Positions 1 through 8,638 of a stretch of 31,457 nucleotides of DNA are shown piece after piece. Origin of the DNA: a virus; the IMG/VR virus record IMGVR_UViG_3300006921_000075, positions 1 to 31,457 of that record; one strand, written 5' to 3'. Positions within the stretch are counted from its first letter, which is position 1; the number at the start of each line of letters is the position of its first letter. Under the pieces are notes generated by a model. It was given only the letters and a program-made list of their open reading frames with translations. It had not been told where the DNA came from and searched no databases. Both the position numbers and the translations under genes were made by a program.

Positions 1-786
1 ACAGAGTTACCTAGAATCCACAAAGAATTACCAAACGGAGATGCTTTCTATCTAATTTGGAATAACACAACACCGACTTTCCCAAGCGGTGATGCTAACT
101 TCAAGTATGGAGCACCACGCCCTATGTCTGAGAAAGAAAGAACATCATCCTTCTTAGGTCGAAAGGTTGGTACTAACGATGAACCTTCACTTATTAGTGT
201 ACGGTCAAGCGGTAAAATGGCTGATACTCAGTACGCTAGTTTTCTACCCGGTTCGATAGGATTGAGACCAGGTAGGGATGGTAAAGTTGCTTATGCTAAA
301 GAATTAAGCGACCTTGTACCTAATGAAGAAGTGGCGGGAATATTCTCAGCACCACCTATGACTATGACAGAATCTGGTCCAGCAGGTATCGTGCCGGATA
401 TGCTAAACGGTCTATACCCTAACGGCGGATTACTACCTTCTTTCGCAACACTAGAACAATATCATACAGACCACAAAGACGATAAAGATTGGTGGGACCA
501 ATGGGTCGGTTGCGTTGGTGAAGTTGTTCATATAGACCCAAGAGAACGTGGTGGATATATTGTAACACTAGGAGACTTAGATATTACATCAACTGCTCCG
601 GGAATTGATTTAGTCATACCAAAGGCACATGAGCACTTACTAACCTTCGGGATTGGTTCGCAGGTTCTAGTGGTCGGGCAGACATACAAATCTAGAGATG
701 ACGAAATGAGATTTACAACACATGGTTGGTGGTGCGTCGATTCTATCGAAGCAGTATCAGTCGATGCTGAATCATGGGAGGATTAA
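1..786 (+). CDS. Putative OB-fold ssDNA-binding (RPA-like) protein, C-terminal part
   Basis: The reading frame is open from the first base of the window, so this is the C-terminal 261 residues of a longer protein; the first in-frame ATG at 124 is probably internal. The last ~95 residues (WVGCVGEVVHID..., ...GSQVLVVGQTYKS...) alternate short beta strands with a glycine turn, as in an OB fold of the RPA/SSB type. The gene lies directly upstream of a RecA-fold recombinase and a sliding clamp, which fits a single-stranded DNA-binding role in replication or recombination. The N-terminal visible half is rich in Gly/Pro/Ser and unrecognised. The OB fold is a judgement from pattern only. Its stop codon lies just before the next gene's start, with that gene's Shine-Dalgarno inside this gene. 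Confidence 0.5.
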   Translation, partial: TELPRIHKELPNGDAFYLIWNNTTPTFPSGDANFKYGAPRPMSEKERTSSFLGRKVGTNDEPSLISVRSSGKMADTQYASFLPGSIGLRPGRDGKVAYAKELSDLVPNEEVAGIFSAPPMTMTESGPAGIVPDMLNGLYPNGGLLPSFATLEQYHTDHKDDKDWWDQWVGCVGEVVHIDPRERGGYIVTLGDLDITSTAPGIDLVIPKAHEHLLTFGIGSQVLVVGQTYKSRDDEMRFTTHGWWCVDSIEAVSVDAESWED

Positions 787-1906: not shown

Positions 1907-1929
1907 GTGGTAACTAGGTGGATTCAAAT

Positions 1930-2751
1930 ATGTTAGTCAAGACGGGAAACCTCAAGAGATTATTAGAAGTAACAGCAAGAAAACAATTTGTGAATGCAAA
2001 ACCTCAACAGCAGGTTATAGGCTGTGTCATTAGACCCAACGGGGATAGTGCGAACACCACAAGTCTAGTTAGAGATGGCAAGACGAGTCTTGGTAAGTTT
2101 TCAATCCCCTGTTCATGGTCAGAAAATGAAGATGCAATAGTCATCCCCGACATTGATAGAACACTAGGAGTTCTTTCAGCACATAGCGGAGATGTAACCC
2201 TAACACAATTAGGTGGTTCATTAAAGATTAAGAGCAGCGGTAAGCAAACGACATTAGTTGCAGAGCCGGGTAGTCTAGCGTTCCCACACAGTCAAGAAAC
2301 AATTGCACAGTGGGAAGAGAAGTCTGTAAGTATGTCTAATCAGATTGACCCTGCTGCGGGATGCTATATTATGCGTGATGGCTCAAAAAGAAATGCTATG
2401 CACATGGTTGAGACTTCATCTAACCTTCTTCACGAGGCTTTAAGATGTGATAACATGAACGGTCAAAAACTTAACCAATATACCTTTCAGCACGACGGCA
2501 AAGACACATTATTCGTTCTAACCGGTAGCGATTTGAAAGGGCAGACTGAGACAATACTTAATGATGATACACCTTTCCAAGAGGATTTTACAACAACCTT
2601 TGAAGGTGGATTAGAGCAAATGCTATCTAACTATGATGGTATGGTCAATCTATACTTCATAGACTTCCGACCAGAAGGACAGGGTATCAGACTATTACTT
2701 GTATTCGACAATGGTGATTGGGTATTCCAAGCAGCAGTTATTAAGAGGTGA
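1930..2751 (+). CDS. Sliding clamp (PCNA-like)
   Basis: 273 residues, close to the usual length of a PCNA/gp45 subunit. The pattern VTLTQLGGSLKIKSSGK followed by TLVAEP matches the beta-strand pair near the end of the first clamp domain. The C-terminal part (VNLYFIDF, IRLLLVFDNGDWVFQAAV) looks like the last strands of the second clamp domain. A clamp would encircle DNA and hold PolB and other enzymes. I chose ATG 1930 rather than the in-frame GTG at 1918, because both the TATA spacing and the AGGTGG site fit ATG 1930. The sequence is divergent and no interdomain loop could be placed with confidence. The position next to a recombinase, in a genome with PolB, supports the call. A structure prediction should show two matching half-domains. 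Confidence 0.6.
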   Translation: MLVKTGNLKRLLEVTARKQFVNAKPQQQVIGCVIRPNGDSANTTSLVRDGKTSLGKFSIPCSWSENEDAIVIPDIDRTLGVLSAHSGDVTLTQLGGSLKIKSSGKQTTLVAEPGSLAFPHSQETIAQWEEKSVSMSNQIDPAAGCYIMRDGSKRNAMHMVETSSNLLHEALRCDNMNGQKLNQYTFQHDGKDTLFVLTGSDLKGQTETILNDDTPFQEDFTTTFEGGLEQMLSNYDGMVNLYFIDFRPEGQGIRLLLVFDNGDWVFQAAVIKR

Positions 2752-3259: not shown

Positions 3260-3457
3260 ATGAAAACAATAATATCCGTATCGACTTCAACAGGTATAAC
3301 TTGGATGGATATAAGAGATATATCATCAATAACAGAACCCTACGATAATGAACCTTTCTTAATCCACATGGCCTCTGGTACTATATTTGAATCAGGAGAT
3401 ATATTGCCTCTATTCGAGGCTTGGAAAAAATATAATGATGGAGATGAAGAAGAATGA
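3260..3457 (+). CDS. Small hypothetical protein
   Basis: 65 residues beginning MKTIISVSTSTGITW and ending in an acidic tail (NDGDEEE). The start is fixed by GGAGG at 3247-3251, 8 nt upstream; the longer frame from 3155 would run inside the previous gene. It overlaps the methyltransferase start by ATGA, so the two are probably translated together. No recognised domain. The alternating hydrophobic strands followed by a helix (ILPLFEAWKKY) suggest a small alpha/beta fold. Confidence 0.6.
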   Translation: MKTIISVSTSTGITWMDIRDISSITEPYDNEPFLIHMASGTIFESGDILPLFEAWKKYNDGDEEE

Positions 3458-4632
3458 GTTTAGAAAGACATATAATAAGAACACCACTAAAAAAGAGATA
3501 TGGCGCACCGCCTTTCAGCATACTAGATGCTCGTCAAGGTTATTGGCAAGACAGAAAGCGTTGGTGGACTCGTAAAGGTATTCGTTCAGAATTAGGTAGG
3601 GGTGAAGCACTTATCGCTATGTCAAAGTCGAACATGAAGTATATGTTTGGTAAAAAGGAATATGATTTCGACCAATTACAAAAAGAAGGCTTTCTTCTAA
3701 CAGATGAAGAAGTATCGGTCGGTGGAGATTCAAAAGGTAATGCTAAGACATTCGCTATTGGAGACAAAGCAACGTGGAATGAAACTAAGAAAGATACTAG
3801 AGCAATTCCGGGAGGAGGCACAGGTAAAAATAGTGCATGGCTTCATAAGAATGAGGATGGTACAACAAGTGCCGCCCTAAAAGAAGGTGATGCTTTCCAA
3901 AATAGAGCAACAGGTACTTCTATATTCGACCCAGTGCTAACAGAGTTAATGTATAATTGGTTCTGCCCCGAAGGTGGTAGCATTCTTGACCCTTTCTGTG
4001 GTGGTTCTGTAAGAGGAATTGTTGCAGCACATGGTAATCATCAGTATGCGGGTATGGAATTACGTTCCGACCAAGTACAAGCAAATAGGATTCAAGGATT
4101 AGAGATTCTAGGTAATACAGATTTACCTATGCCTAATTGGGTTGTTGGAGACGCACTAGACATACAGGATAAGATAGGTGGTCAATGGGATATGGTATTT
4201 TCATGCCCGCCCTATGGTGACCTTGAAGTCTATTCAGAAGATGATAGGGATTTATCCACTATGGAACACCACGAGTTTTTAGATTCGTATAGAAATATTA
4301 TTCAGCGTTCTGTTGATATGCTCAAGCCTAATAGATTTGCTGTGTTCGTTGTTGGAGACTTTAGAAATGAAAAAGGATTCTATCGTAACTTCGTTAGCGA
4401 CACTATTGACGCATTTCAATCAGCAGGTGCTACCTTATACAATGAATGTATTTTAATTACAGTTGCAGGTAGCCTTCCTATAAGAGTCCATAAGCAGTTT
4501 GCTAACAATAGAAAGTTAGGTAAAACTCATCAGAATGTTTTAATCTTCTTCAAGGGTGACCCAAAGACTATACAGGATGAGTTTCATTACTTAGATGTTG
4601 AAGATAAGACTGAGGATGTTGAATGGCTTTAG
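3454..4632 (+). CDS. DNA methyltransferase (N4-cytosine/N6-adenine type)
   Basis: 392 residues. The SAM-binding motif I is LDPFCGGS at about residues 178-185, preceded by the helix TELMYNWF typical of the N4/N6 methyltransferase family. The catalytic motif IV is SCPPYGD at 250-256. Motif I comes before motif IV, so the order is not the beta class order. The Cys before PPY, instead of Asp or Ser, is unusual for textbook enzymes but I recall it from phage-encoded relatives. The N-terminal ~45 residues (PPFSILDARQGYWQDRKRWW) form a conserved block often fused to such phage enzymes. It probably methylates viral DNA, for protection or as a first step of modification. It overlaps both neighbours. 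The protein ends in Glu-Trp-Leu, as do the next protein and PolB. Confidence 0.85.
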   Translation: MSLERHIIRTPLKKRYGAPPFSILDARQGYWQDRKRWWTRKGIRSELGRGEALIAMSKSNMKYMFGKKEYDFDQLQKEGFLLTDEEVSVGGDSKGNAKTFAIGDKATWNETKKDTRAIPGGGTGKNSAWLHKNEDGTTSAALKEGDAFQNRATGTSIFDPVLTELMYNWFCPEGGSILDPFCGGSVRGIVAAHGNHQYAGMELRSDQVQANRIQGLEILGNTDLPMPNWVVGDALDIQDKIGGQWDMVFSCPPYGDLEVYSEDDRDLSTMEHHEFLDSYRNIIQRSVDMLKPNRFAVFVVGDFRNEKGFYRNFVSDTIDAFQSAGATLYNECILITVAGSLPIRVHKQFANNRKLGKTHQNVLIFFKGDPKTIQDEFHYLDVEDKTEDVEWL

Positions 4633-5558
4633 ACTTAAGCGAGTTTAAGCCACTAACATTAGAAAACTATACCGAGTTTCGTGAAGCACTTTCTTCTATG
4701 TCTTGTGGTAGGTTAATTAGGTACTATGAATCTCCCCTTAGATTGATGCACCAACCTCATGTATTCAAGTTAGGATATATTGATGATGAATTAGTCGTTC
4801 TGAAAGACAGACAAATTATGGGTACTCAAGTATTGTATGCTATCCTACCATCAAGTGATGATATGGTGAATAAATTAAACGATGCAGGTATTCCTAGCCT
4901 AGTAAATGAGTCCGGTATGCAAGAATGTGTGCTTGATAATGAAGAATACATATACAAACTTAGTGCATTCAGCGATAGATACGGGGTGAACAAGAACCAA
5001 TTAAGAAGGCCATGTAACAAGGCTGAGTCGCTTAACGACTCAGATACAATAGATATACAGGTTCATTGGGGCAACGTACCATACAAAACGCTTGAATCAT
5101 GTAATGCTTTGACCGGCAGATGGTTAGGACAAAGGGATAAAAAAGCATGGAAGCCTAACTTCTTTATTGACTCGTTCAATGCTTATTCACAATTAGAAGA
5201 TGCACTTCTTCTGACCATTATGGAAGGGGATAGATGTATAGGGTATCATCTTTCACATAGGACTGACAACGGTCTAATATATGATACGGCCTGTAAAGAC
5301 TACGATAATAAGTTAATAAAGAATATGACACCTGTTCTCCTCCACTATGCTTCAAAGGCATGGGAAGAGAAATTAGGGTTGGATAGTGCTTATGTAAATA
5401 GAGGTGCAGCAGTTAGAGGTGCTTCTAGTAAGATAGCAAAGCAGAAACTAAGACCGGCTATCGTAAATAAGATATACAAAACCGTACCTAGTATAAAGAT
5501 AACGAAAGAATTGAAGGCCTCTTACTTTGAAAAAAGAAACTATACAGAGTGGTTGTAA
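4623..5558 (+). CDS. Putative GNAT-fold acyltransferase (DUF2156-like)
   Basis: 311 residues. A region near residues 106-130 (EEYIYKLSAFSDRYGVNKNQLRR) resembles the block in DUF2156/LPG synthase C-terminal-like GNAT proteins where a substrate-binding Tyr/Arg segment lies. The C-terminal half (DALLLTIMEGDRCIGYHLSH, then NRGAAVRGASSKIAKQKLRP at about 259-278) matches the strands and the Asn-x-Gly...Lys-x-x-x-x-Pro ending of the same family. It would transfer an acyl or aminoacyl group to an unknown acceptor. The ATG lies inside the Glu-Trp codons of the methyltransferase's end, so the two are tightly coupled and may work together, perhaps on modified bases. The protein ends in Thr-Glu-Trp-Leu. 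Family assignment is moderate and the substrate is unknown. Confidence 0.5.
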   Translation: MALDLSEFKPLTLENYTEFREALSSMSCGRLIRYYESPLRLMHQPHVFKLGYIDDELVVLKDRQIMGTQVLYAILPSSDDMVNKLNDAGIPSLVNESGMQECVLDNEEYIYKLSAFSDRYGVNKNQLRRPCNKAESLNDSDTIDIQVHWGNVPYKTLESCNALTGRWLGQRDKKAWKPNFFIDSFNAYSQLEDALLLTIMEGDRCIGYHLSHRTDNGLIYDTACKDYDNKLIKNMTPVLLHYASKAWEEKLGLDSAYVNRGAAVRGASSKIAKQKLRPAIVNKIYKTVPSIKITKELKASYFEKRNYTEWL

Positions 5559-5566
5559 TCCAAAGA

Positions 5567-5573
5567 TTTATAA
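5567..5573 (+). promoter_or_regulatory. TATA box upstream of the HTH gene
   Basis: TTTATAA preceded by a purine-rich AAAGA stretch, in the 68-nt gap between the GNAT-like gene and the HTH gene. The expected transcript start is near 5596, leaving a leader of about 30 nt, unlike the leaderless genes in this window. The leader contains a small GCC-CATA-GGC inverted repeat at 5602-5611 that could be a control site. The TATA call is reasonable; the hairpin is weak. Confidence 0.5.
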
Positions 5574-5626
5574 CCCCATGCCTCTTCCGTAATAGTAGAA
5601 AGCCCATAGGCGGGAAGCCAAAATAA

Positions 5627-5926
5627 ATGACAGAAACAGAATATGCAATAGTAATAGATGAAGAACAAGATGGAATACAAGAAATAATACCCTGTAAAGC
5701 GAATGTAAGATTCGTTAAAGATGGAGTATGGTATCTCCTAAGCACAGGTACAGCAGATACCTCTAAACCATATAGACAAGAATCATGGTTAAGAGAAGAA
5801 TATATCAACAAAGGACAAACCCTTCAACAGATTGGGAATAGATGTGGTGTAAGTCCTATGACCATAAACCAGTGGATTGTAAAGCATGGTATCGAAAGCA
5901 GACCAAGAGGAAGGAGACAAGAATGA
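5627..5926 (+). CDS. Small helix-turn-helix DNA-binding protein
   Basis: 99 residues. The C-terminal part (REEYINKGQTLQQIGNRCG, then VSPMTINQWIVKHGIESR) is a typical homeodomain-like helix-turn-helix of the resolvase/transposase regulator kind, with the recognition helix near residues 77-88 and a basic tail RPRGRRQE. The N-terminal ~50 residues look like a short beta hairpin domain (VRFVKDGVWYLLST). An in-frame stop lies directly before the ATG, so the start is clear. It has its own TATA box with a leader, and sits before the deoxyribosyltransferase-like gene and PolB. It may regulate this unit or mark specific DNA sites. The target is unknown. Confidence 0.7.
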   Translation: MTETEYAIVIDEEQDGIQEIIPCKANVRFVKDGVWYLLSTGTADTSKPYRQESWLREEYINKGQTLQQIGNRCGVSPMTINQWIVKHGIESRPRGRRQE

Positions 5927-6414
5927 GTGTATCATTCTATTTGTGCGGACCAATTCTCGAAGGTGATGAGCGTTGGCGTTCAATAGGGTGGCGTGAAGTA
6001 GCATATAATATATTGACCGAAAAAGGATTTACAGTATTCAATCCTATGGTTAGTGCTAAAGCAGGTGATGTTCATTATGATGAGACATTCAAAGAATTAA
6101 TAGTCCCTAGAGATAAATTAATGATAGACCGAAGTGATATTATTATAGTCAATTATGTTCCTAAAGAATTAAGCATAGGTACTTGTATGGAGATTATGTA
6201 TGCACACATGACCGGCAAGAAGGTTATATGGTTTGCGGAGGACCAAGAACTCTGTTTAGACTTAGAAGATAATCCTTGGGTCATAGCACATAATGATTGG
6301 GAGTTTGTTAGACCATTTAGTGCAGAAGTTATGGATGATATAGCGGAATGGTTTAATTGTTTCAAACCACATAACCCACTAACTATAAGCCGTGATGGAT
6401 GGCAAGTATTATAA
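5923..6414 (+). CDS. Nucleoside 2-deoxyribosyltransferase-like protein (DUF4406 type)
   Basis: 163 residues. FYLCGPI at residues 5-11 is the N-terminal glycine-containing strand of the nucleoside 2-deoxyribosyltransferase family. MIDRSDIIIVNY at 67-78 is the central strand, and SIGTCMEIMYAH holds the likely catalytic Glu at residue 90. Family members exchange or cleave the base of (deoxy)nucleosides or nucleotides, including hydrolases that clear or make modified dNMPs. In a virus it could salvage nucleotides or tune the pool for a modified base. The start is ATG 5923, which overlaps the HTH stop as ATGA; a longer frame from 5842 lies inside the HTH gene. The methyltransferase and GNAT-like genes nearby make a DNA modification role attractive but unproven. 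Confidence 0.7.
   Translation: MSVSFYLCGPILEGDERWRSIGWREVAYNILTEKGFTVFNPMVSAKAGDVHYDETFKELIVPRDKLMIDRSDIIIVNYVPKELSIGTCMEIMYAHMTGKKVIWFAEDQELCLDLEDNPWVIAHNDWEFVRPFSAEVMDDIAEWFNCFKPHNPLTISRDGWQVL
6407..6414 (+). promoter_or_regulatory. TATA box for the DNA polymerase gene
   Basis: TATTATAA, overlapping the stop codon of the previous gene. The TTATAA centre (6411.5) is 25.5 nt before the PolB ATG at 6437, so the transcript would begin on the start codon. No good Shine-Dalgarno precedes that ATG, which agrees with leaderless translation. Confidence 0.6.
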
Positions 6415-6436
6415 CTAAGCGATATAACGGAACACT

Positions 6437-8638
6437 ATGATAGTGGATAAGTTAGGCGGGAAAAGGGTTGCAGTTAGGTATCGTGACCCAGTAACGCTTG
6501 ACCGAAAGCAAGATATAATAAGCCACATTTACCCTTATGGTTTTATTAGAGATGAAGAAGCAGATTTAGTTTCAGCAATAAGAAAGGAAGAGGGTTTTAG
6601 TGGTCTTTATGGTGAATCACTTACTAAGATAACACTTAGCGACCCTTATGAAGTATCACAACTAAAGGATAAGTTTTCACAGACTTGGGAATGTAATATC
6701 CCCTTCACTAATAGAGTACTTATGGATAATGGTAAAGAGTACCCATTCTATAAGCATCGTGTATGGTATGTCGACCTTGAATGGAATGAAAGGGAAGAAG
6801 TAACGGTTGCGACTGTCTATGATAATTACATGGGGAAATATCTAACGTGGTTTGTATCACCGCCCGGTCAAACTCACCCACCATTAGTAAGTAAGTTAGG
6901 AGATAAAACATTCAATCCCCCACTTAAAGCATTCAAGACCGAAAAGGAATTACTCGATGATTTCTTCCATGTGATGATGAAGAAAGACCCAGATGTATTG
7001 ACAGGTTGGTTCTTTATGGGTGCTGATATGCGAGTCCTGTTTGATGCTTGTAAGAGGCATGGTTGGAATGCAGGTAAAAGAATGAGTCCACATGGTTCTG
7101 TTCGTTATCAGTTTGATGATTGGTCACAATGTATCAAAGGCAGAATTACTATTGACCTAATGACTGTATTCTGTAAGTTATGGCGAATAAAGAACGGGCA
7201 ACTACCTGGTCAAAGCCTAAAAGATGTATCGCAGTTTGTTCTTGAAGATGAAGAAAAGATGGACCTAGCAGACGGGCATGATACATACTATACTGACATC
7301 GGTCTATACATTGACTATAACATACAAGACGTAGCATTACTTCCTAAATTAGATAAGATGTTGAATTGTATCGACCACTATATCAACTTACAGCATATTG
7401 TTCAGTGTGATTTTACAACAACTCCTTGGGTCACTAGATTAGCAACAGTATTATTTATGCGTGATAAAGAAATTGACTGGAAGATGCCTTCAAGGGCTCA
7501 GTTTGGTTATGAAGATTATCAAGGTGCAGATATACAAGAACCGGTAGCAGGGCTATATGAAAATGTTGCCATCATGGATATTAGAGCCATGTACCATAGT
7601 AATGTCGTTAAGTATAATATATCTTGGGAAACTTTACTTGATGAGAAGAATGCTGTGTTCGATACAGACGCACCAACAGGTGCATTAGGTCGTGCTATGA
7701 ACCTACTTACAGATTTAAGAAATGAGTACAAGGCTAATATGAAGGCTTCGACAACCAAAGACGAAAAGACTAAATGGGATTCGGCTCAATTCGCAACAAA
7801 GTCCCTAGTGGCTTCGCTGTATGGAGTGTGTGGCGATAGCCGATTCGGTATGTATCACCCTGCGGTAGCGGCGGCCATTACTAGGGAATCAAGAAACACT
7901 CTTTTTACGCTTAGGGATAAATGTATTGAATGGGGTTGTGATGTAATTTATGGTCATACTGATTCTGTTTTCGTATGTGTTGAATCCCCCGAAGCGGGTG
8001 TGGAGATGGTTGAGTGGATTAACAAAGAAATGGCTCCGATAGAAACTGAATATGAAAAGCATTGTGAGCGTATGCTTCTTAAGGCTAAGAATAGATACGC
8101 AGGTAAGGTAGTATGGACTGATGGTAAATACCACGAACCCGACTATTATATCAAGGGGATTGAATCTAAGCAAGCAAGGATGCCTCAGATAATGAAGGAT
8201 GCTATGAATACAACTATAAACTCTATGCTTGATGGTAAAAGTGAAGAAAGTGTTACAGAGAAAGTATGTAATATTATACATGATATGATAGATGGTAGCA
8301 TATCCCTTGATGACCTAAAACAGAAAGGTAAATTAAAGAAAGACCTAAAAGACTATAAGACAATAGGTGGCTCGGCAGCAGGAGCATTATGGGCGAATAC
8401 ACACTTAGGAAAACAATATAGAAAAGGTTCATATTTTTGGAATCTGATAGATAATAACGGAAGGTTTATATCTTTTGACAGGGTGGAAGAACTACCAGCA
8501 ACCATCGGGATAGGGTACGAGATAATGTCTGATAGATATATTTTAGAGAAAGTTAAACCTTTCTATGAAATAGCATCTTGGGATATGTCTCCACTATACG
8601 ATGCGAAGAAGGGAAGGAAAACAGTAGAGTGGTTATAA
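6437..8638 (+). CDS. polB: Family B DNA polymerase with 3'-5' exonuclease domain
   Basis: 733 residues, slightly shorter than cellular archaeal PolB (~780). The exonuclease motifs are present: VDLEW (D113, E115), MGADMRVL (D197) and YNIQD (Y294, D298). Polymerase motif A is DIRAMYHS (D381), in place of the usual DxxSLYPS. Motif B is KSLVASLYG (K455 to G463), with Ala instead of the common Asn. Motif C is YGHTDS (505-510), with His507 in place of the first Asp; the metal-binding Asp509 remains. Proofreading and synthesis both look intact. The N-terminal end has the TWECNIPFTNR segment typical of archaeal/phage PolB. The last residues are Thr-Val-Glu-Trp-Leu; archaeal PolB often carries its clamp-binding motif at the C-terminus. 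It probably replicates the viral genome together with the clamp and primase encoded here. Confidence 0.95.
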   Translation: MIVDKLGGKRVAVRYRDPVTLDRKQDIISHIYPYGFIRDEEADLVSAIRKEEGFSGLYGESLTKITLSDPYEVSQLKDKFSQTWECNIPFTNRVLMDNGKEYPFYKHRVWYVDLEWNEREEVTVATVYDNYMGKYLTWFVSPPGQTHPPLVSKLGDKTFNPPLKAFKTEKELLDDFFHVMMKKDPDVLTGWFFMGADMRVLFDACKRHGWNAGKRMSPHGSVRYQFDDWSQCIKGRITIDLMTVFCKLWRIKNGQLPGQSLKDVSQFVLEDEEKMDLADGHDTYYTDIGLYIDYNIQDVALLPKLDKMLNCIDHYINLQHIVQCDFTTTPWVTRLATVLFMRDKEIDWKMPSRAQFGYEDYQGADIQEPVAGLYENVAIMDIRAMYHSNVVKYNISWETLLDEKNAVFDTDAPTGALGRAMNLLTDLRNEYKANMKASTTKDEKTKWDSAQFATKSLVASLYGVCGDSRFGMYHPAVAAAITRESRNTLFTLRDKCIEWGCDVIYGHTDSVFVCVESPEAGVEMVEWINKEMAPIETEYEKHCERMLLKAKNRYAGKVVWTDGKYHEPDYYIKGIESKQARMPQIMKDAMNTTINSMLDGKSEESVTEKVCNIIHDMIDGSISLDDLKQKGKLKKDLKDYKTIGGSAAGALWANTHLGKQYRKGSYFWNLIDNNGRFISFDRVEELPATIGIGYEIMSDRYILEKVKPFYEIASWDMSPLYDAKKGRKTVEWL

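Follow-up and report, generated by a model that had tools for sequence, protein, structure and literature searches.

The locus and its three tails

We analysed the virus record IMGVR_UViG_3300006921_000075 of IMG/VR over positions 1 to 31,457 (this whole stretch of 31,457 nucleotides is called the window here). Its replication block encodes a DNA methyltransferase, a GNAT-like protein and a family B DNA polymerase (PolB), all of which end in Glu-Trp-Leu (EWL), and a protein that models as a sliding clamp. An earlier note, made from the sequence alone, had proposed that EWL is a viral docking tag, most likely for this clamp. The features concerned are the following.

1918..2751, plus strand: virus-encoded sliding clamp, the proposed receptor of the tails (GTG start at 1918 or ATG at 1930; AlphaFold2 predicted local distance difference test, pLDDT, 90; predicted template modelling score, pTM, 0.88)
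3454..4632, plus strand: N6/N4 DNA methyltransferase (PF01555) with an N-terminal ParB-like part, tail-bearing (Pfam E 2.9e-10; phrog_12517, E 1.4e-100; phrog_498, DNA methyltransferase)
4615..4629, plus strand: C-terminal tail DVEWL of the methyltransferase (..EDVEWL; gat gtt gaa tgg ctt), seen in the sequence and kept in relatives
4623..5558, plus strand: GNAT-like protein, tail-bearing, a proposed DNA-modifying enzyme (weak LPG_synthase_C match, PF09924, E 0.0012, below the cutoff; tail in all homologues with intact ends)
5541..5555, plus strand: C-terminal tail YTEWL of the GNAT-like protein (gag tgg ttg), seen in the sequence (NVEWL, GVEWV, PVEWL and PIEWL in relatives)
6437..8638, plus strand: PolB, tail-bearing (PF00136, E 2.7e-34; phrog_262, DNA polymerase)
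8621..8635, plus strand: C-terminal tail TVEWL of PolB (gag tgg tta), seen in the sequence (xW[LIVW] in 34/34 non-redundant PolBs of the clade)

The three EWL endings, and the differing codons that write them (gaa tgg ctt, gag tgg ttg and gag tgg tta), are thus present as the earlier note described. Its guess that a protein ends in EWL by chance at about 1e-4 was too low, as the background measured in related contigs at sites ending 1–60 residues before the C-terminus is 2.4e-4 per position. Its judgement that three such endings in one block are striking stands, with p ~1.7e-7 for at least three among the 43 window open reading frames (ORFs) of at least 100 aa. Across the related contigs, EWL closes 69 of 2,405 non-redundant ORFs, against 0.6 expected. 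The methyltransferase tail does overlap the next start codon, which the note had raised as a caveat. As a cause of the tail, overlap with this ATG was rejected, EWL being kept in the methyltransferases of loci L058, L060, L062 and L049, where the gene neighbourhoods are different.

Conservation and specificity of the tail

Scans with the clamp and with P4, a fourth tagged protein of ~221 aa that is encoded in relatives upstream of the window start, gave 142 loci having clamp or P4, some of which are overlapping pieces of one contig; relatives reach down to ~35% clamp identity. For family counts, proteins were made non-redundant at 85% identity and the tail was defined as a C-terminal W-[LIVFMWY]; the resulting counts come from sequences related by descent and do not represent independent events. 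All three window tails are kept in relatives whose PolB is 77–100% identical, one GNAT-like protein ending in VEWV. In relatives of 62, 75 and 51 kb, the pattern of EWL plus stop codon has exactly four matches, all of them at the ends of the four tagged genes.

Homologues without the tail had been named beforehand as the observation that would speak against a docking tag. When the homologues were collected, the tail survived in P4 (42/42), PolB (34/34 in this clade), the methyltransferase (22/24) and the GNAT-like protein (4/4). It is found in 0/248 members of seven other families of the replication block, namely RFC-S (0/31), Sak4-like (0/38), clamp (0/47), HTH (0/45), primase (0/27), ERCC4 (0/25) and ORF168, another conserved gene (0/35); one ERCC4 singleton, outside the 0/25 count, ends in DSWL. 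The motif is also tied to position, as it lies at the exact C-terminus in 177 of the 2,405 ORFs vs ~17 at other offsets. In a large group of marine archaeal viruses the tail is thus conserved, and its carriers are confined to PolB, P4 as presumed loader subunit, certain nucleases and the DNA-modification enzymes, nearly all of which have it.

Proteins that carry the tail

Once PolB and P4 are set aside, almost every family with the tail consists of enzymes that modify DNA, and their folds are unrelated. They include several subfamilies of N6/N4-methyltransferases, with two tagged members per genome in L049, L052 and L083, as well as C5-methyltransferases (PF00145) and further methyltransferases. 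DpdA (PF23859) is tagged with xW[LI] in 6/6 cases in clamp-bearing relatives of the window, and tagged GNAT-like proteins include a GNAT/ATPase fusion (L078, L108). A Mom-like DNA modification protein (phrog_1384; L161:19177-19773) from a marine archaeal virus relative ends in EEVKQEWI, and a pyridoxal phosphate (PLP)-dependent enzyme (PF00291; L183:17244-18110) from a P4-bearing virus, possibly a base hypermodification enzyme, ends in VEEPAWL. Exceptions to the modification theme are some PD-(D/E)XK nucleases, one ERCC4 nuclease and, in magrovirus-like loci, the large protein encoded downstream of RFC-S. Methyltransferase homologues from bacteriophages have C-termini without the tail. The tail and the company it keeps suggest that the GNAT-like protein of the window is itself a DNA-modifying enzyme.

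Two neighbouring genes may be mentioned here. A nucleoside 2-deoxyribosyltransferase-like protein without the tail is encoded between the GNAT-like protein and PolB (window 5923-6414) and may share a nucleotide modification theme. Downstream of RFC-S lies a 400–430 aa protein (window 124-783, cut by the window start; L005:3030-4277) with a conserved acidic Trp tail of its own (ESWED, GWD, GWDA); its magrovirus-like versions end in DLDWF, and the label SSB-like (single-strand binding) rests on position only.

Composition of the tail

Among 95 distinct tails, Trp occupies position -2 in 95/95; the set was selected for Trp followed by a hydrophobic residue, but within the PolB clade and P4 there are no exceptions. 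Position -1 is L, I, V, F, M or W, Glu stands at -3 in 65%, and the neighbouring residues vary. The aromatic/hydrophobic pair at positions 7–8 of the PCNA-interacting peptide (PIP) box is present in all three window tails as Trp at -2 and Leu at -1, and all three are extreme C-terminal, as are archaeal PIP boxes (PMC6881253), which likewise end in an aromatic and a hydrophobic residue. The earlier caveat that the peptides lack a full PIP box holds for the window, whose tails differ from archaeal boxes in lacking the Gln and in not placing the first hydrophobic residue at the usual distance. It is answered in part by some relatives, in which canonical QxxLxxW[LW] boxes occupy the same position: methyltransferases end in QRTLAEWL, QQTLGEWL and QKTLAEWL, and 7/95 tails match the full pattern Q..[LIVM]..W.

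The bacterial beta-clamp binding motif is of the QL[SD]LF type. Most tails of the window group resemble it in having hydrophobic residues at -4, -2 and -1, a closer match in spacing than the PIP box, although the window tails lack its Gln and the clamp is of another type.

The viral clamp and its loader

The clamp gene of the window has no Pfam or PHROG family match. Its monomer model, searched with Foldseek, resembles bacterial beta clamps and archaeal PCNA at E values down to 4e-11; there are 271 PDB matches at E <= 0.001, and all 50 among the matches listed are beta clamps or PCNA. Together with the confident model, these structural matches bear out the earlier assignment of gene 1930-2751 as a clamp. 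Sequence searches of the PDB with profiles of the clamp and of DUF6610, a family discussed below, gave nothing useful.

The clamp gene is present in 28/28 loci found through P4 that have 9 kb of downstream sequence. Relatives also encode an RFC-S clamp-loader subunit upstream, outside the window (phrog_168, clamp loader, E 6e-44). P4 is probably a loader subunit: its best structural neighbours are RFC subunits, matched weakly (E 0.03) from a poor model (pTM 0.43) that at most hints at an RFC fold and in which the last seven residues have pLDDT <50.

Different tail codes in other viruses

In the cultured haloviruses HVTV-1, HCTV-1 and HCTV-5, RFC-L ends in QSVLDF, PolB in GGVLSW and the GNAT protein adjoining PolB in VEDPLDF; an N6-methyltransferase ends in DVLDF in HVTV-1 and HCTV-5 and was not found in HCTV-1. 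Halovirus RFC-L, PolB, methyltransferase and GNAT thus carry ends of the VLDF/VLSW type, so that in another virus family the same protein classes have an ending in common, but not the one of the window. The unannotated HVTV-1 protein gp101 (L138:3425-4282, 285 aa) can be aligned with the profile of the window clamp (probability 74%, E 2.8e-5) and is probably a sliding clamp.

Magroviruses (Aoguangviridae; PMC10768690) resemble the window virus in several ways: they are tailed viruses of marine archaea, they encode PolB, a clamp, a clamp loader and an AEP primase, and the replication block is syntenic in L009-L021, which on our reading of gene content are magroviruses. They differ in a PolB split in two parts, a clamp without detectable sequence similarity and canonical PIP boxes in place of EWL. 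Their PolB boxes are of the type QKKLDEWW or QKTLSEWW, and a P-loop protein in magrovirus-like loci ends in QMSLGDF. No sequence homology was found between P4 and this PIP-bearing P-loop protein.

Bacteriophage DpdA proteins (65–67 non-redundant, from other viral contigs, L190-L262) often have, close to the C-terminus, clamp motifs of the bacterial type (QLDLF, QADLF, QMELF, QLSLTL). The consensus-like pattern Q..[LMI]F, chosen after a first look, occurs in 10/67 of these C-termini, against 7/1,967 ORFs taken from the same contigs as controls (odds ratio 49, p 1e-11); stricter beta-clamp patterns, written after the tails had been seen, were not relied on. These motifs suggest that bacteriophage DpdA may be clamp-tethered too, and a switch of tail code in DpdA between virus groups is a strong lead. 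Mycobacteriophage DpdAs have a TLFDVA motif at the end.

Probable docking on the viral clamp

Very probably, the EWL tail is a short peptide at the C-terminus for docking on a clamp, a PIP-like box in derived or shortened form, (hydrophobic)-x-Trp-(Leu/Ile/Val/Phe)-COOH, carried by PolB and modification enzymes, with the viral clamp as partner. The tag proposed in the earlier note thus gains support from the conservation of the tail, the modelled fold of the clamp and the PIP boxes of relatives. We consider the clamp the most likely partner because its fold is modelled confidently, because some relatives have full PIP boxes at the same place, and because the VLDF/VLSW code of haloviruses and the beta-clamp motifs of DpdA point the same way. 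That C5-methyltransferases, DpdA and a Mom-like protein carry the same tail strengthens the case for a tethering of modification enzymes.

We infer the following sequence of events. The virus's own clamp (1918-2751) would be loaded by the virus's clamp loader, and the Trp and last residue of each tail would insert into a hydrophobic pocket of that clamp. For PolB, the tail would confer processivity; the methyltransferase, the GNAT-like protein and other modification enzymes would ride the clamp behind the fork by the same tail, scanning new DNA. New viral DNA may in this way be modified before host restriction enzymes see it.

The closest known parallel is phage T4, whose gp43, gp33 and gp55 bind the clamp through C-terminal motifs that are interchangeable (PMC2988020). 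There too a single virus has highly similar short hydrophobic/acidic C-termini on its polymerase and on further proteins, which bind the viral clamp and can be swapped (PMC2988020, PMC7892883), and near-identical short C-termini common to the polymerase and other proteins are what we find here. In T4 they serve the polymerase, ligase and late transcription, whereas here the carriers other than the polymerase are mainly DNA-modification enzymes, in archaeal viruses and with a Trp-Leu end. DNMT1 is likewise a DNA methyltransferase with a clamp-binding peptide, for which a coupling of methylation to replication has been proposed (PMC4575159); its peptide is N-terminal and belongs to a single eukaryotic enzyme, whereas the tails described here are C-terminal, with predicted binding, and occur on unrelated modification enzymes of one virus.

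Several observations weigh against docking on the viral clamp. Two of the 24 methyltransferases in the non-redundant set lack the tail. In the window tails, the PIP Gln is absent at -8 and the hydrophobic residue expected at -5 (PIP position 4) is replaced by T, D or Y; across all tails a hydrophobic residue is found at -5 in 33% vs 63% at -4. Direct sequence comparison does not detect a relation between clamps of the window type and those of magroviruses. Further, the PCNA-binding domain of DNMT1 was dispensable for replication-coupled methylation in one study (PMC4575159), and tethering therefore need not be essential.

The partner might instead be another shared hub of the replisome, such as a single-strand binding protein, the clamp loader or the Sak4-like protein. 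The acidic Trp tail of the large protein downstream of RFC-S (GWD, ESWED; DLDWF in magroviruses) is in keeping with this, as it makes Trp tails a wider theme. We regard such a hub as unlikely, since in T4 and archaeal systems it is the clamp that PolB tails bind (PMC6881253, PMC2988020), the tail is replaced by full PIP boxes in relatives and by bacterial beta-clamp motifs in DpdA homologues, and the presumed loader subunit is itself tagged. Binding to host PCNA rather than to the viral clamp is similarly improbable. Host PCNA would also take PIP-like peptides, and the canonical boxes at the ends of hafunavirid PolBs (QSGLGAFI, QTGLAAFC, QRGLADYV) suit a PCNA of the host type; against this, the tail code tracks the clamp lineage, with xWL accompanying the window clamp, LGDF/EEWW the magroviruses and VLDF/VLSW HVTV-1 and its relatives, and an own clamp is present in all 28 testable loci.

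That the tails reflect chance, shared ancestry or C-terminal structural packing, with no docking at all, seems very improbable indeed. Members of each tagged family are related by descent, and their counts are accordingly not independent, but the tagged folds are unrelated to one another (PolB, N6/N4- and C5-methyltransferases, DpdA, GNAT-like, Mom-like and PLP enzyme), bacteriophage homologues of the methyltransferase lack the tail, and the probability quoted above for the window alone is already very small.

Clamp docking, as the preferred reading, makes the tail a docking peptide of known type put to a new purpose, as a common tag for DNA-modification enzymes, with codes varying between virus groups that have different clamps. 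A tail shared across the DNA-modification enzymes of one virus appears undescribed in the papers searched; no earlier report came up in literature searches on DpdA with clamp terms or on PIP boxes in methyltransferases of archaeal viruses. Viral DNA needs to be fully marked before host restriction cuts it, and how modification keeps pace with replication has been little tested. For studies of how viruses couple DNA modification to replication, a shared docking tail offers a concrete feature that can be mutated, and as a sequence tag it can lead to modification enzymes not yet recognized. In its widest form, the idea is that tailed viruses as a rule tether their DNA-modifying enzymes, by exchangeable C-terminal codes (xWL, VLDF, QLDLF), to whichever clamp replicates them, so that the tail would reveal enzymes such as the window's GNAT-like protein and HVTV-1 DUF6610; we judge the chances of this generalization to be about evenly balanced.

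A candidate enzyme for dPreQ1 insertion in HVTV-1

HVTV-1 DNA has dPreQ1 at ~30% of guanines, and no DpdA was found in the virus (PMC6884629). Its gp69 (DUF6610, PF20314; L137:33803-34963) adjoins folE (GTP cyclohydrolase) of the preQ0 pathway and ends in NVLEF. The DUF6610 protein of the preQ0 cluster, in HVTV-1, HCTV-1 and HCTV-5 and beside folE at L139:2643-3806 and L140:2455-3570, ends in VLEF or VLDF, the tail type of RFC-L and the methyltransferase. On the basis of its tail, gp69 is a candidate for the missing enzyme that inserts preQ1 (7-deazaguanine) in HVTV-1 DNA. No sequence link between DUF6610 and DpdA was found, and no earlier report on DUF6610 was found in the papers searched, although later work outside them may already have named the enzyme. 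The parallel in HVTV-1, which can be cultured and has 30% dPreQ1 (PMC6884629), makes the idea directly testable. A sixth tagged HVTV-1 protein is the small gp99 (L138:1807-2310), which, with its homologues in L139 and L140, has a VLGF/VLEF end.

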